Part shown: piece after piece, positions 10,361 to 61,105 of the stretch
Numbering within the stretch: the stretch's first letter is position 1
Layout: the number at the start of each line of letters is the position of its first letter
From: Pseudomonadota bacterium
Lineage (GTDB): Bacteria > Desulfobacterota > Binatia > Binatales > Binataceae
Direction: 5' to 3'
DNA length: 64,000 nt
NCBI GenBank assembly: GCA_021323945.1
Contig: JAJPKA010000002.1
Location: 186,001-250,000, forward strand
Program-made: the position numbers and the translations under genes
The notes under the pieces: model-generated
What the model was told of the DNA's origin: nothing
The model's database searches: none
The model's input: only the letters and a program-made list of their open reading frames with translations

Positions 10361-11681
10361 GCATTATCTCATTCAGACCGGGGGCGGTGGTGTATCGGAC
10401 CAGATCGTCGTACTCGCGCGGCGCTTCCTCGTTGGTGTAGATCGGATGCGCAGCATCAGGGTCAACAAAGAATGTGGCATGGGTGTTCTTCACGTCCCAG
10501 TACGACCAGACTAAGGCTCCACAGGAGTTGACCGGGCCGATTTGCGGCACATTACAGGTCTTTAAGAACAAGCCCATAAACTTCCAGGGCTGCATCTGAG
10601 CGTCGTAAAGATCCTCCCACAGAGGAGCAGCGAATTGACGGTCGATATAGAGGACTCGCTTGCCGTAACAGTAACCGGACGCATAAGCAGGTAACTTGCT
10701 TACACTGAGAACATCGACATCGCGCAGTTGCCATTTGCCCCAGGATGGCTTCGGCCAGCCGAGCGGCATATCGAAATCCTGCGGAAATCTTCCCTGCGGC
10801 AAGTTGATATCCACCAGGGAAAGCATTTTCTTTTCGCCAACCAGTTCTGCGGTGACCTGCGTCAGATTCGAATCAAATCCCTCGCGTAGTTCTTCCGGAG
10901 TCGCATCCGTATCGTGCGAAGGACTGCACCTTGCGAGGGTGGATATTGGCTGATAGCGGCGCAGCGCGGGAATGAACGCAAATTGATCGTCAGGCTTCGA
11001 GAGATCGGCGTAGGAAATGTACAGATTGGCGGCGTATCGCAGCTGTTCGGGTTCCAGCACCATCAACCACTGAGTGACGAATTTGCCCTCGGAGCCGGGA
11101 ATCGTCGCGGGAATGCCGGGGTCAGTATTGAATGCCAGCTGTCGCTCAACAATCTCGGCCGCGTTGCAGCTAATGCTGCCATAGTGATCGACCATACATC
11201 CGTCGGCATAGGAAATCACCGAGAGATGAGGCATGTAGCGATACCACAGATTTGCCAGAATCTTCCAGCCTTTATGCGGTTCCTGAGGGTTGGGGAATGG
11301 TATCCCGCCTTGGTAATTGTGCAAGGTCAACCCTCCATCCGGCAGCTCCTCTATTTGTACCTGGGCGGCGTATTTCTCCGTTGCCGCCAGGTAATTGTGT
11401 GGCAGCGGGTGAATAACCGTCGGTCCTACCTCCAATGAGACATCACTCGGCATCTTCCATCCGTATTTGCCTTCGAACAAAGCTTGCATCCCTTCGGGCA
11501 TAAACTGTTGATAGCGCTGCCAGTTCTGCATAGTGATGACAGTGCCAGGCGGGATCGGCTCAGCCGCTCTGTCTGGTACGACCTGTGACCCGCCGGCAGA
11601 GGCCTGGGCCAGAACTGATGTAGGTCCCACTAACACAAGCGGGACAACTATCCATCCAAGCAGAGCAATCATTCTACTCAT
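10356..11681 (-). CDS. DUF1329 domain exported protein
   Basis: A 441-residue protein with a signal peptide (about 25 residues, ending ...SVLAQA). The DUF1329 core includes GWKILANLWYRY, QLRYAANLYISYADLSKPD and the hallmark FAFIPALRRYQP. DUF1329 proteins are periplasmic or outer-membrane-associated, have a LolB-like lipid-binding fold, and are often encoded with RND transporters or hydrophobic-compound catabolic genes. Its place inside the LLM/thiolase region fits a role in handling lipophilic substrates at the envelope. It is convergent with the LLM gene, and the two share a hairpin. Confidence 0.85.
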   Translation of the reverse strand: MSRMIALLGWIVVPLVLVGPTSVLAQASAGGSQVVPDRAAEPIPPGTVITMQNWQRYQQFMPEGMQALFEGKYGWKMPSDVSLEVGPTVIHPLPHNYLAATEKYAAQVQIEELPDGGLTLHNYQGGIPFPNPQEPHKGWKILANLWYRYMPHLSVISYADGCMVDHYGSISCNAAEIVERQLAFNTDPGIPATIPGSEGKFVTQWLMVLEPEQLRYAANLYISYADLSKPDDQFAFIPALRRYQPISTLARCSPSHDTDATPEELREGFDSNLTQVTAELVGEKKMLSLVDINLPQGRFPQDFDMPLGWPKPSWGKWQLRDVDVLSVSKLPAYASGYCYGKRVLYIDRQFAAPLWEDLYDAQMQPWKFMGLFLKTCNVPQIGPVNSCGALVWSYWDVKNTHATFFVDPDAAHPIYTNEEAPREYDDLVRYTTAPGLNEIMR

Positions 11682-29288: not shown

Positions 29289-29741
29289 TCACTTGTCGTC
29301 TCTTCGGAACCATTCCGCGGCACGGGCCAATGTCGGATAACCCGAACCTAGCTGGATGAGGACGCCGTGACTCGAGCGGGGAGATATAAAGCCCTCGTAA
29401 GAATCCGGTCCGAATTCACGTTCGCCCACGATTTTGATGCCTTGTTCTTTGAGCTGCGCTATCCGGACCCTGGAGTCGGGAACGTCGAGTGTAAGATGAT
29501 GTACTCCTTCACCATGCTTTTGCAAAAACGCTCGCAAAAATGAGTCTTCCCCCAAGGGCTCCAACAACTCGAGGGTAAATCCGTCGAGATCGAGTTCCAC
29601 AATTCTGTAGCCGGCCTCAGCATTCGCGTGTTCATACAAAAAACGAGCGCCGAGGACACCTTCATAAAACTTGCGGGCCTCGGCGATACTGTTTACCGCG
29701 ATTCCAATGTGGTCGAGTTTGCCAATTGCTCCTCCGGTCAT
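29289..29741 (-). CDS. VOC family protein, methylmalonyl-CoA epimerase-like
   Basis: A 150-residue vicinal-oxygen-chelate protein with two paired beta-alpha-beta-beta-beta units. The first begins KLDHIGIAVNSIAEARKFYEGVLGA and the second GVHHLTLDVPDSRVRIAQLK. The metal-binding positions (His in DHIGI, Glu in LDGFTLELLEP, His in HHLTL) are present. This arrangement matches methylmalonyl-CoA epimerase, which converts (S)- to (R)-methylmalonyl-CoA, but lactoylglutathione-lyase-like proteins are similar. It lies just downstream of the GST gene on the same strand (64 bp). Confidence 0.78.
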   Translation of the reverse strand: MTGGAIGKLDHIGIAVNSIAEARKFYEGVLGARFLYEHANAEAGYRIVELDLDGFTLELLEPLGEDSFLRAFLQKHGEGVHHLTLDVPDSRVRIAQLKEQGIKIVGEREFGPDSYEGFISPRSSHGVLIQLGSGYPTLARAAEWFRRDDK

Positions 29742-29805: not shown

Positions 29806-30417
29806 CTACTCTTCAGGCCAGCTGGCACTGAAACTGGGACGAGCTTTCACGCGCTGCCACCAGGCCTTGAGATTGGGAAAATCGTCTGGAATAGAAAAGC
29901 CGCTCCTTTCGAAATTGGCCAGCGGCGGTATAAAGGAGATGTCGCCTAGACTGAATTCATCGGCGAAGTATTCTCTCCCTTCCAGTTCACGCTCGAGATA
30001 AGCGAAATGCTGACGTGCCTCGCGTTCACCTTCCGCGATTTTGCCGCGGTGCTGCTCACTGGGTGGCTTGCGCATCTCCCGGAAGATCTTGAACAAGGAT
30101 GGCATCAGGTAGGCGTCCGCGTAATCTTCGAAAGCTCTGGCCCGTGCACGCTTGGCCGGATCGCGCGGTAGAAGCGGAGGCACCGGATGGGTATCCTCAA
30201 GGTATTCGTTGATGATAGTTGAGTCGTGGACGATGACCCGACCATCGATTAACGCTGGAACTTTGCCCACTGGATTGATCGCGAGGTATTCAGGTTTCTT
30301 GTGCTCACCCGAAGGCAAATCGAGCCACGTGGTTTCCCATTGGAGCCCTTTTTCCAAAAGGGCAATGCGCGTCTTGCGCGCGTAGGGTCAAGGTTTATAG
30401 TCGAAGAGTCTTAGCAT
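29806..30417 (-). CDS. Glutathione S-transferase with in-frame TGA at the catalytic position (candidate selenoprotein)
   Basis: If TGA at 30388-30390 is read through, the ATG at 30417 gives a 203-residue GST starting MLRLFDYKP-U-PYARKTRIALLEKG. A GAGGA site lies just upstream of that ATG. The N-terminal thioredoxin-like domain continues with NPVGKVPALID and HDSTIINEYLED, and the helical C-terminal domain has SLGDISFIPPLANFERSGF. In this motif the residue before PY(A)RK is the Ser or Cys that activates glutathione, so TGA falls exactly on the catalytic codon (codon 10). Without readthrough only a TTG start at 30357 remains, which would delete the active site. Selenocysteine is the favoured reading; a pseudogene by nonsense mutation is the alternative. 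Confidence 0.6.
30345..30363 (-). promoter_or_regulatory. Candidate bacterial SECIS hairpin in the GST reading frame
   Basis: Read on the minus strand, GCCCTTTT, loop GGA, AAAAGGGC forms a perfect 8-bp stem with a 3-nt loop whose first base is G. The loop begins after 32 nt from the TGA at 30388-30390. These features fit what I recall of bacterial SECIS elements. A second, smaller stem (GCGCG / CGCGC, 30367-30381) lies between it and the TGA. Confidence 0.45.
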
Positions 30418-30484
30418 ACTAATCCTCAGAGGTTGACGCTCCACTGTCGATCGTTCGGCCGACAGCGGTTATTGCAAAACTCTA
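30418..30484. promoter_or_regulatory. Divergent promoter interval
   Basis: Only 67 bases separate the GST start (minus strand) from the hypothetical gene at 30485 (plus strand). Both genes must therefore start transcription here or inside one another. No clear -35/-10 pair could be assigned. Confidence 0.35.
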
Positions 30485-31036
30485 ATGAGCGCGATGTCAG
30501 ATCGTCAAGCGTCATCATCGGTCCGTGGTGCGCTCCCAGGCGGCCAGGCGGCAAAAAAAGCGAAACCCGGCGAGCCGTGGGAGATGCCGCCAATCATCAA
30601 GGTTTATGAGGCTTTTGGCGCGGTAGCCGACGGGCGTGTCCAGCTTCAGGACGACTGTCATGCGACCGTTATTTCGTCGGATTTCACAAGGACCTACCAG
30701 GTCGAGAATTCCACCGATTGTCGCTCGATTTCCTCCAACGACAATGCCTCATATTGGCAGGGCTACCTCGGCTATCCCGCAATAGCGATGATGCTCAAGC
30801 GGGGGCTGCTTCAGGCCCGCGAGGATGTGATCCAAGCGCTCGGCAAAATACCCTGGAAGAAATTGAACCGCCGGTTTCGCGGCGATTATGGTCGAACAAT
30901 CGCTGAAGTAATGCGGACCGTCGAGGAAACAACCGGGGTTGATCACCGAGTCATCGAGGCCGAAGCGAACGCCATATTGCAAGCACTTAAGAATCTTGCG
31001 CCCGTGCGCGGTGCCCGCCGCATACAGGTTCCTTAG
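30485..31036 (+). CDS. Hypothetical protein
   Basis: A 183-residue protein that I do not assign to a family. It has a basic, Ala/Gly-rich N-terminus, a central segment with WEMPPIIKVYEAFGAVADGRVQL and an unusually Ser/Asn-rich run (CRSISSNDNASYWQGYLGYPA). A helical C-terminal part follows (RTIAEVMRTVEETTGVDHRVIEAEA). No signal peptide or membrane segment is seen. It is divergent from the GST gene. The ATG has no clear ribosome binding site, and its end is tail-to-tail with the lipoprotein gene at 31033, overlapping by 4 bases. Confidence 0.6.
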   Translation: MSAMSDRQASSSVRGALPGGQAAKKAKPGEPWEMPPIIKVYEAFGAVADGRVQLQDDCHATVISSDFTRTYQVENSTDCRSISSNDNASYWQGYLGYPAIAMMLKRGLLQAREDVIQALGKIPWKKLNRRFRGDYGRTIAEVMRTVEETTGVDHRVIEAEANAILQALKNLAPVRGARRIQVP

Positions 31037-31572
31037 TAGGAGCGGTGAGCCTGCCACGACCCCTGCTCAATCAGCCCCCCGCCTTGGTAGCAGGTGTAGC
31101 CGCCGTTGATCATCTGATCTGTGTTGAAACCGGTATAAATACAGCTCGTGCCGTCAGGCATCATGACGCGAATACTAAGCCGTGGTCCATTGACCTCGGC
31201 CTCAATTACTTTGCCGGTATAGTTAGCATCGTAGCAGTCCATGTTGCCGTAGGCGCACGAGTAACGGCCTGTAAACCCACCACCGGGGGCCTCCAGTAGG
31301 GTTATGGTTACCTTCTGTTCGGCGTTGCAACGGCTTGGAAGATGGACAAAGGTGGCACATGTTGCCAGCGTCGTTCCCTGCCAGACACCGGAAACGTTCT
31401 TGGCATCGGCGCCACCGGAGTTTTGAGGTGTCGCCACCGTGACGGCCGATTGGCCGTCTGACGCACGCGGATACGTTTCGGAACTGCTACAACCGTATGC
31501 CAACACGAGAACCAACAGCCCGCTAGTTAGAAGAGTTTGTCGTGTACTGAAATATGATGGTCGGAATTGCAT
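31033..31572 (-). CDS. Secreted lipoprotein, first of two paralogues
   Basis: A 179-residue predicted lipoprotein. The signal peptide ends LVLVLAYGCSS, a lipobox with Cys at about residue 28. The mature part has NVSGVWQGTTLATC, then GGGFTGRYSCAYGNMDCYDANYTG and a C-terminal EQGSWQAHRSY. It shares the GVWQG, YxCAYGNxxC and E-Q-G segments with the neighbour at 31651, so the two are paralogues. Conserved paired cysteines suggest an extracytoplasmic beta-sandwich. Function unknown. Confidence 0.7.
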   Translation of the reverse strand: MQFRPSYFSTRQTLLTSGLLVLVLAYGCSSSETYPRASDGQSAVTVATPQNSGGADAKNVSGVWQGTTLATCATFVHLPSRCNAEQKVTITLLEAPGGGFTGRYSCAYGNMDCYDANYTGKVIEAEVNGPRLSIRVMMPDGTSCIYTGFNTDQMINGGYTCYQGGGLIEQGSWQAHRSY

Positions 31573-31650: not shown

Positions 31651-32130
31651 TTAGTAGCTACGCTCGACAAGGAAACCACCCTGTTCCATAGGTCCTCCCC
31701 AATGACACTGGTAGCGGCCTCGCAGGATGCCGTTTTCCGGAATCCCTGTAAAGCGGCACATCGAGCCGTCCTCGAGCATTACGACAATTCGTAGCAGTCT
31801 TGCAGTCATCTGCCCGTTTCTAATAACGCCGGTTTCGGCCAGATCGCGACAATTCTCATTGCCATAGGCACATCGGTAAGAGCCGCTGATCTGGACTCCG
31901 TTCTGAAACATTACCAACGTAATTCGCTGCATAGCCCCGCAGCGTCCGGGATTGGTCGTAGTAATTATGGGGCAATCGGCAAAGCTTCTGCCTTGCCACA
32001 CGCCAGTGACGTTACTCGCGAATGGCATCGTTGATCTACCAGGACCCGGTCCCGTCGCAATCTGTGTGCATGAGTGGGCGAGAGAAAGCAGCAGGACAAG
32101 AGGGAGTCGGCGCAAAAAGCATGCACGCAT
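31651..32130 (-). CDS. Secreted lipoprotein, second of two paralogues
   Basis: A 159-residue predicted lipoprotein from the ATG at 32130, which has AGGGAG upstream; the longer frame to 32163 does not. The lipobox is LLLSLAHSC. It has the same block order as the protein at 31033: NVTGVWQGRSFADC, ISGSYRCAYGNENC, then a final EQGGFLVERSY. The two are tandem on the same strand 78 bp apart and probably derive from duplication. The family is not recognised. Confidence 0.7.
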   Translation of the reverse strand: MRACFLRRLPLVLLLSLAHSCTQIATGPGPGRSTMPFASNVTGVWQGRSFADCPIITTTNPGRCGAMQRITLVMFQNGVQISGSYRCAYGNENCRDLAETGVIRNGQMTARLLRIVVMLEDGSMCRFTGIPENGILRGRYQCHWGGPMEQGGFLVERSY

Positions 32131-32332
32131 CGGAATAATCTCCCTATGAAGCGTTGCTTCCAATTGAAACTAAAAGGGCCTTACTCGCAAGCAGCAAAAT
32201 TGGATTGTCAAAACTCGGGGCCTGGTCGATTAGCTGTTAGTTAATAGGCGTACTCAGACGGTTGAAGCCGGTTCAGGTCGGAACCTAGCGATTTTGGGAA
32301 TCTTCGAGGTACTGGAGTTTATAACGCCTGCA

Positions 32333-61015: not shown

Positions 61016-61105
61016 GGAGGGGTGGCCGAGCGGTTGAAGGCACCGGTCTTGAAAACCGGCAGCGGCTTACGTCGCTCGTGGGTTCGAATCCCACCCCCTC
61101 CGCCA
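61016..61105 (+). tRNA. tRNA-Ser(TGA)
   Basis: Class II tRNA with acceptor GGAGGGG/CCCCTCC. The anticodon stem CCGGT/ACCGG holds loop CTTGAAA, giving anticodon TGA (61050-61052). A long variable arm (AGCGGCTTACGTCGCT) and T loop TTCGAAT are present. CCA is encoded (61103-61105). Confidence 0.96.

Follow-up and report, generated by a model that had tools for sequence, protein, structure and literature searches.

Does the in-frame TGA at codon 10 of a glutathione S-transferase (GST) gene encode selenocysteine (Sec), or does it interrupt the gene? The locus that raises this question lies on the minus strand of the window, the whole stretch of 64,000 nucleotides of DNA that was analysed, which belongs to a genome of 3.74 Mb (22 contigs, 95.5% complete) from an uncultured bacterial lineage whose phylum we take to be Binatota and whose habitat is presumably soil. 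A first-pass annotation of the bare sequence had proposed that the GST is a selenoprotein, and a TGA shared by all 12 orthologues, a conserved hairpin and the presence of Sec machinery genes all support that proposal as a prediction. The window gene is very probably a real selenoprotein gene. The predicted gene and the elements at its 5′ end are as follows.

29806–30417, minus strand: Sec-GST gene, 203 amino acids with the TGA read as Sec and a TAG stop, assigned from domain matches and orthologues.

30388–30390, minus strand: in-frame TGA, codon 10, at the catalytic Cys/Ser position directly 5′ of helix 1.

30423–30427, minus strand: ribosome-binding site GAGGA, 5 bases ahead of the ATG.

The start codon reported by the first-pass annotation, an ATG at 30417 behind a GAGGA site, was borne out base for base (ATG at 30417–30415, GAGGA at 30427–30423), and the frame closes with TAG at 29808–29806. 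The annotation had also described a GST N-terminus, then the TGA, then a complete GST downstream in the same frame. Profile searches of the 203-amino-acid product agree, matching GST_N_2, GST_N_3, GST_N and GST_C, with both the N-terminal domain (PF13409, 77.5 bits, cut-off 25) and the C-terminal domain (PF00043, 47.7 bits, cut-off 20.7) above the curated cut-offs of the superfamily and the GST_N_2 match beginning at residue 10. An AlphaFold2 model of the protein (mean pLDDT 81.1) matches 665 PDB chains at E ≤ 0.001 with TM-scores up to 0.83, and the best 50 of these 665 are GSTs or GST-type proteins such as Ure2p, SspA and LigF, pointing to a GST fold. In this model residue 10 lies between strand 1 (residues 2–7) and helix 1 (residues 14–22).

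We searched for orthologues in 57 genomes and, at E ≤ 1e-60, in 148 genomes of the class. The Sec-GST was found in 12 of the 57, all bearing the family code of the window's genome, and these comprise the window's own gene and 11 orthologues that are 68–88% identical to its protein (the locus L063 reaches 88% over residues 1–202). The wider search returned the same 12 Sec-GSTs and no TGA-free member. Each of the 12 has exactly one TGA, at codon 10, in one conserved frame, and none has Ser there, which answers the comparison of TGA with Ser or Cys codons that had been proposed as a check. Since the same TGA occurs in 12 genomes of different species, a read error is implausible. The homologues that rank next, at roughly 47% identity or less, are TGA-free; in 18 of them (L013–L030) the Sec position holds Cys (14) or Ser (4), so the earlier reading that the TGA falls on the catalytic Ser or Cys residue was correct. 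Five of the 12 orthologues (in G024, G011, G018, G004 and G028) have a TGA after the aligned end of the protein, so TGA seems to serve as a stop in these genomes as well.

A search for the Sec machinery, also suggested beforehand, found every component in the window's genome, with scores above the cut-offs throughout: selA (572 bits), selB (360 bits), selD (379 bits) and tRNA-Sec (74 bits). The selD gene has one in-frame TGA of its own, in the motif KAAG-U-AGKL, which we take to be the catalytic Cys/Sec position of SelD. tRNA-Sec was counted only at 66 bits or more; the gathering score was rejected as a test, as matches of about 50 bits pass it, including the window's tRNA-Ser at 61016. Among the 12 carriers of the Sec-GST, selB was found in all, selA in 11 (not in G010) and tRNA-Sec at 66 bits or more in 10 (not in G001 or G011). 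Because selB occurs in 119 of the 148 genomes of the class, its co-occurrence with the Sec-GST is weak evidence. One genome, G012, has two tRNA-Sec genes of equal score 4 kb apart (G012:C298:6544-6635 and 10728-10819) and two selB genes (G012:C358 and C181).

It is highly improbable that the TGA is translated as some other amino acid or by plain readthrough, with the hairpin described below acting as a readthrough or regulatory element. The apparent use of TGA as a stop in five orthologues, the Cys and Ser of the TGA-free homologues at its position and the presence of the Sec machinery genes all argue against it. We also consider it very unlikely that translation starts past the TGA, at TTG 30357, to give a shortened protein of 183 amino acids, although a mechanical list of open reading frames contains precisely that frame. 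Codons 2–9, 5′ of the TGA, evolve as coding sequence in the 12 orthologues (pN/pS 0.13), and all 12 begin with ATG, with a purine-rich stretch ahead of it in the 11 others as in the window. According to the structural model, the short form would also be missing strand 1, the greater part of helix 1 and the catalytic residue.

On the 3′ side of the TGA, which we read as a Sec codon, two hairpins are predicted.

30345–30363, minus strand: SECIS-type hairpin with an 8-bp stem and the loop GGA, the loop lying 32 nt past the TGA.

30367–30381, minus strand: second small GC-rich hairpin of 5 bp, 3′ of the TGA and 5′ of the SECIS, in codons where synonymous change is reduced.

The first-pass annotation had described a perfect 8-bp stem with loop GGA, spaced 24 nt (stem) and 32 nt (loop) from the TGA, and all of this was confirmed: the stem strand GCCCTTTT (30363–30356) and its partner AAAAGGGC (30352–30345) enclose the loop GGA (30355–30353). 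Its claim that the hairpin fits bacterial SECIS geometry also holds under the bSECIS model, as its criteria are printed in the excerpt of PMC13188914 consulted (loop of 3–9 nt, stem of 4–16 bp, G in the first two loop bases, 16–37 nt from the UGA, −7.5 kcal/mol or lower). RNA folding gave −10.1 kcal/mol in a 31-nt stretch and −8.9 kcal/mol for the bare hairpin. By itself, this energy is only mildly unusual and not rare. Dinucleotide shuffles gave z = −1.02 (31 nt), −2.19 (61 nt) and −1.06 (108 nt), and 63 of 1000 random synonymous recodings of the window's gene reached the energy of the hairpin; across the orthologue genomes, 3 to 147 of 1000 recodings reached that of their own hairpin. In addition, 5 of 39 control rows of Cys/Ser GSTs (two of which, L058 and L094, are the same gene) hold a hairpin of −7.5 kcal/mol or better at an allowed place, and the bare hairpin of the G017 orthologue lies right at −7.5. 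Energy was therefore rejected as sole proof of a SECIS.

The conservation of the hairpin is more telling. Codons 20–24 read CTT TTG GAA AAA GGG in all 12 orthologues, and elsewhere in these genes Leu, Glu, Lys and Gly are mostly written with other codons. Among pairs of codons for the same residue, 67 of 574 (11.7%) differ in codons 18–26, which contain the hairpin, against 187 of 420 in codons 1–9 and 214 of 402 in codons 27–35. All stretches of codons 1–74 outside codons 18–26 differ in 40–53% of such pairs, apart from codons 11–17, which can fold into the smaller hairpin closer to the TGA and are intermediate (87 of 387, 22.5%). The small hairpin at 30367–30381 could be part of a compound SECIS. 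Every one of the 12 orthologues has standard pairing at all eight positions of the stem, and a ninth pair forms in only three; as the stem hardly varies, no covariation can be counted in this family. The proposed check of hairpin conservation among orthologues thus came out in its favour at synonymous sites in all 12, and this codon pattern indicates that the hairpin of the window's family is under selection. With the TGA and the invariant hairpin codons each present in 12 of 12, the hairpin stands far above chance. An Rfam scan of the window returned tRNAs only and a permissive scan (E ≤ 10) of 30290–30430 no match, which is evidence neither for nor against a SECIS.

It is extremely improbable that a nonsense mutation or an assembly error has broken an ordinary Cys/Ser GST. 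Although such a change in a single genome would give the same picture, and comparable hairpins arise by chance in the control rows just cited, the TGA is shared by 12 genomes of different species with the frame open on both sides, and codons 27–74 on its 3′ side are under purifying selection (pN/pS 0.11) in genes with invariant hairpin codons. We regard the window gene, with high confidence, as a predicted selenoprotein of the GST superfamily.

A second, more distant set of TGA-bearing GSTs was represented in the search of 57 genomes by six genes at 34–40% identity. Querying the 148 genomes with one of these six gave 44 matches at E ≤ 1e-40, spread over 35 genomes. A single TGA occurs in 42 of these matches, and every one of the 35 genomes except G463 has at least one TGA-bearing match, 34 genomes in all. 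We determined where the TGA lies in 36 loci representing 33 genes (three of them appear twice) in 32 genomes, namely 30 of the 34 with TGA-bearing matches plus G044 and G050. In each of the 33 genes the TGA falls on the same residue as in the window's family, and in each the hairpin, with a loop of GGA or GGC, is 13 nt nearer the TGA (loop at +20 versus +33). Among 31 distinct sequences, pairs 1 and 3–8 are always standard, pair 2 is standard in 28 and a ninth pair forms in three; compensatory changes on both sides occur at pairs 2, 5 and 8 in one, two and three sequences, respectively. Same-residue codon pairs differ in 353 of 2956 cases in codons 4–10 past the TGA, which form this stem, and in 1486 of 2888 cases in codons 11–20 past the TGA, which overlap the place of the stem in the window's family. 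This shift of the codon constraint along with the hairpin is the strongest individual argument that the hairpins of both sets act as SECIS elements.

We did not find selB in six of the 34 second-set genomes (G035, G492, G509, G513, G521 and G522). Five of these are 81–96% complete and lie in 210–790 contigs. In the sixth, G035, which is rated 100% complete, selA, selB and a strong tRNA-Sec match were all not found, and selB is present in three genomes of the same genus code (G518, G519 and G520). Incomplete assembly or a recent loss of the Sec trait may explain these cases. The TGA-bearing GST of G035 (L052/L102/L129, G035:C85:29563-30120) has an intact SECIS-type hairpin. Separately, within genus code g15, selA, selB and a strong tRNA-Sec match were not found in G026 and G032, and G015 and G034 have selB; the Sec trait may have been lost within this genus.

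Whether the two sets acquired Sec independently was examined with trees in which the TGA residue was masked and seven close second-set rows were left out. In the best tree the 12 orthologues group together (97/98 support), separate from the second set. With 83 rows, the AU test rejects a single Sec clade only weakly (p = 0.035). On a quick tree of 73 rows, from which 10 further rows had been dropped (two of them divergent TGA rows, eight with long branches), such a clade is no longer rejected (p = 0.167). Sec may have been adopted twice, or once with a SECIS that moved.

If the gene is decoded as we propose, SelB carrying Sec-tRNA-Sec would bind the hairpin past the TGA and the ribosome would insert Sec as residue 10, placing it at the catalytic Cys/Ser site of GSTs, directly before helix 1 and facing the thiol of glutathione. 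The GST residue at this position contacts the glutathione thiol. The selenolate would most likely react with peroxide or disulfide substrates and be recycled by glutathione, so that chemistry of the peroxidase or thiol-transferase type seems more likely than plain conjugation. Engineered GSTs in which Sec replaces the active-site Ser are described, in the available portion of PMC9944854, as approaching natural peroxidases in their glutathione peroxidase activity. From the thiol-contact site and this engineered activity we infer, by analogy, that the window's Sec-GST may be a glutathione-dependent peroxidase or thiol-transferase. Candidate genes for glutathione synthesis occur in the window's genome (gshA-type, PF04107, 209 bits; gshB-type, PF02955, 234 bits). 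These matches are unspecific and suggestive only, because the two families also match in 5 and 9 of 14 control genomes, which are presumably without glutathione.

Among the genes around the Sec-GST is the following.

29289–29741, minus strand: gene of the VOC/glyoxalase superfamily, directly downstream of the Sec-GST.

Its product scores 92.5 bits against methylmalonyl-CoA epimerase, below the cut-off of 114.95. A relative of this VOC gene adjoins the Sec-GST in 10 of the 12 genomes, the window's included, lying downstream on the same strand in nine and convergently in one (G013); none was found in G007 in the 0.9 kb up to the contig end, or in G017 within 3 kb downstream. We rejected the idea that Sec-GSTs in general have a VOC neighbour, as none of the 33 second-set loci had one at E ≤ 1e-5 in the flanks examined. 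On the other side of the gene, a divergent open reading frame of 183 amino acids (30485–31036, plus strand) has no Pfam or NCBIfam match, and relatives of it (53–59%) stand beside the Sec-GST in 4 of the 11 other carriers. Beyond it, two tandem genes for related small proteins (31033–31572 and 31651–32163, minus strand; 39% identity over 124 residues) have lipoprotein-like N-termini. The protein of 31033–31572 has no Pfam match, and relatives of it occur near the Sec-GST in G001, G007 and G013.

Taking both sets together, we suggest tentatively, at somewhat short of even odds, that within one bacterial class Sec was taken up two or more times at one and the same active-site residue of GSTs, each time with a new SECIS made from different codons (loop 32 or 19 nt past the TGA; GGA or GGC). 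Such enzymes would be a natural counterpart of the laboratory seleno-GST peroxidases, with the window's family paired with a VOC-family enzyme in one glutathione-dependent pathway.

The Sec-GST family itself is not new but already known as a published prediction. Going by the parts of the sources consulted, it was predicted from the Sargasso Sea in 2005 (4 sequences, COG0625; Table 1 of PMC1088965) and from Global Ocean Sampling in 2008 (12 sequences; PMC2398784), and it appears as a GST-like protein (PF13409) in a 2026 review (PMC13188914) and in the lists of PMC9312934, with MEK9676863.1 and PPR62222.1 among the example accessions. In the same portion of the 2026 review, the functions of such proteins are called largely uncharacterized. 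Terms for GST were not found in the text of PMC1794560, and in literature on Binatota and selenocysteine the word was found only in a reference title. Sec-GSTs of Binatota, the two SECIS placements and the VOC neighbour were likewise not found in the literature searched, most subscription journals being outside that search. To this prediction our analysis adds numerous complete genes in a new phylum, two placements of the SECIS and a VOC-family gene conserved as neighbour. Since 2005, Sec-GSTs have consisted of table lines and a few sequences, with no biochemistry of a natural one in the literature searched, and a large set of complete, conserved genes with SECIS and context makes the role of Sec in a GST testable. 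The two placements also provide a case for how SECIS elements arise or move within coding sequence.

By family description, the window gene shares with the published family (COG0625/PF13409) a GST domain, a single Sec and a bacterial SECIS, and like the marine Sec-GSTs it belongs to PF13409 with no UxxC-type motif listed. The marine reports concern metagenomes, whereas the window's family consists of complete genes with their context in genomes of another phylum, a comparison made from descriptions only. Cys-type GSTs of the same genomes (e.g. G000:C1:191909-192499, 39% identity) belong to the same family and have the same active-site position, but with a Cys codon where the Sec-GST has TGA. 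A further comparison is with the engineered seleno-GSTs described in the available parts of PMC9944854 and PMC10778597 (rat theta, human zeta, a Ser9 variant and a GST with the E. coli fdhF SECIS). Like the window's protein as predicted, these have Sec in a GST, and those of PMC9944854 have it at the active-site Ser, but they were made in the laboratory, whereas the window's Sec-GST is apparently natural.
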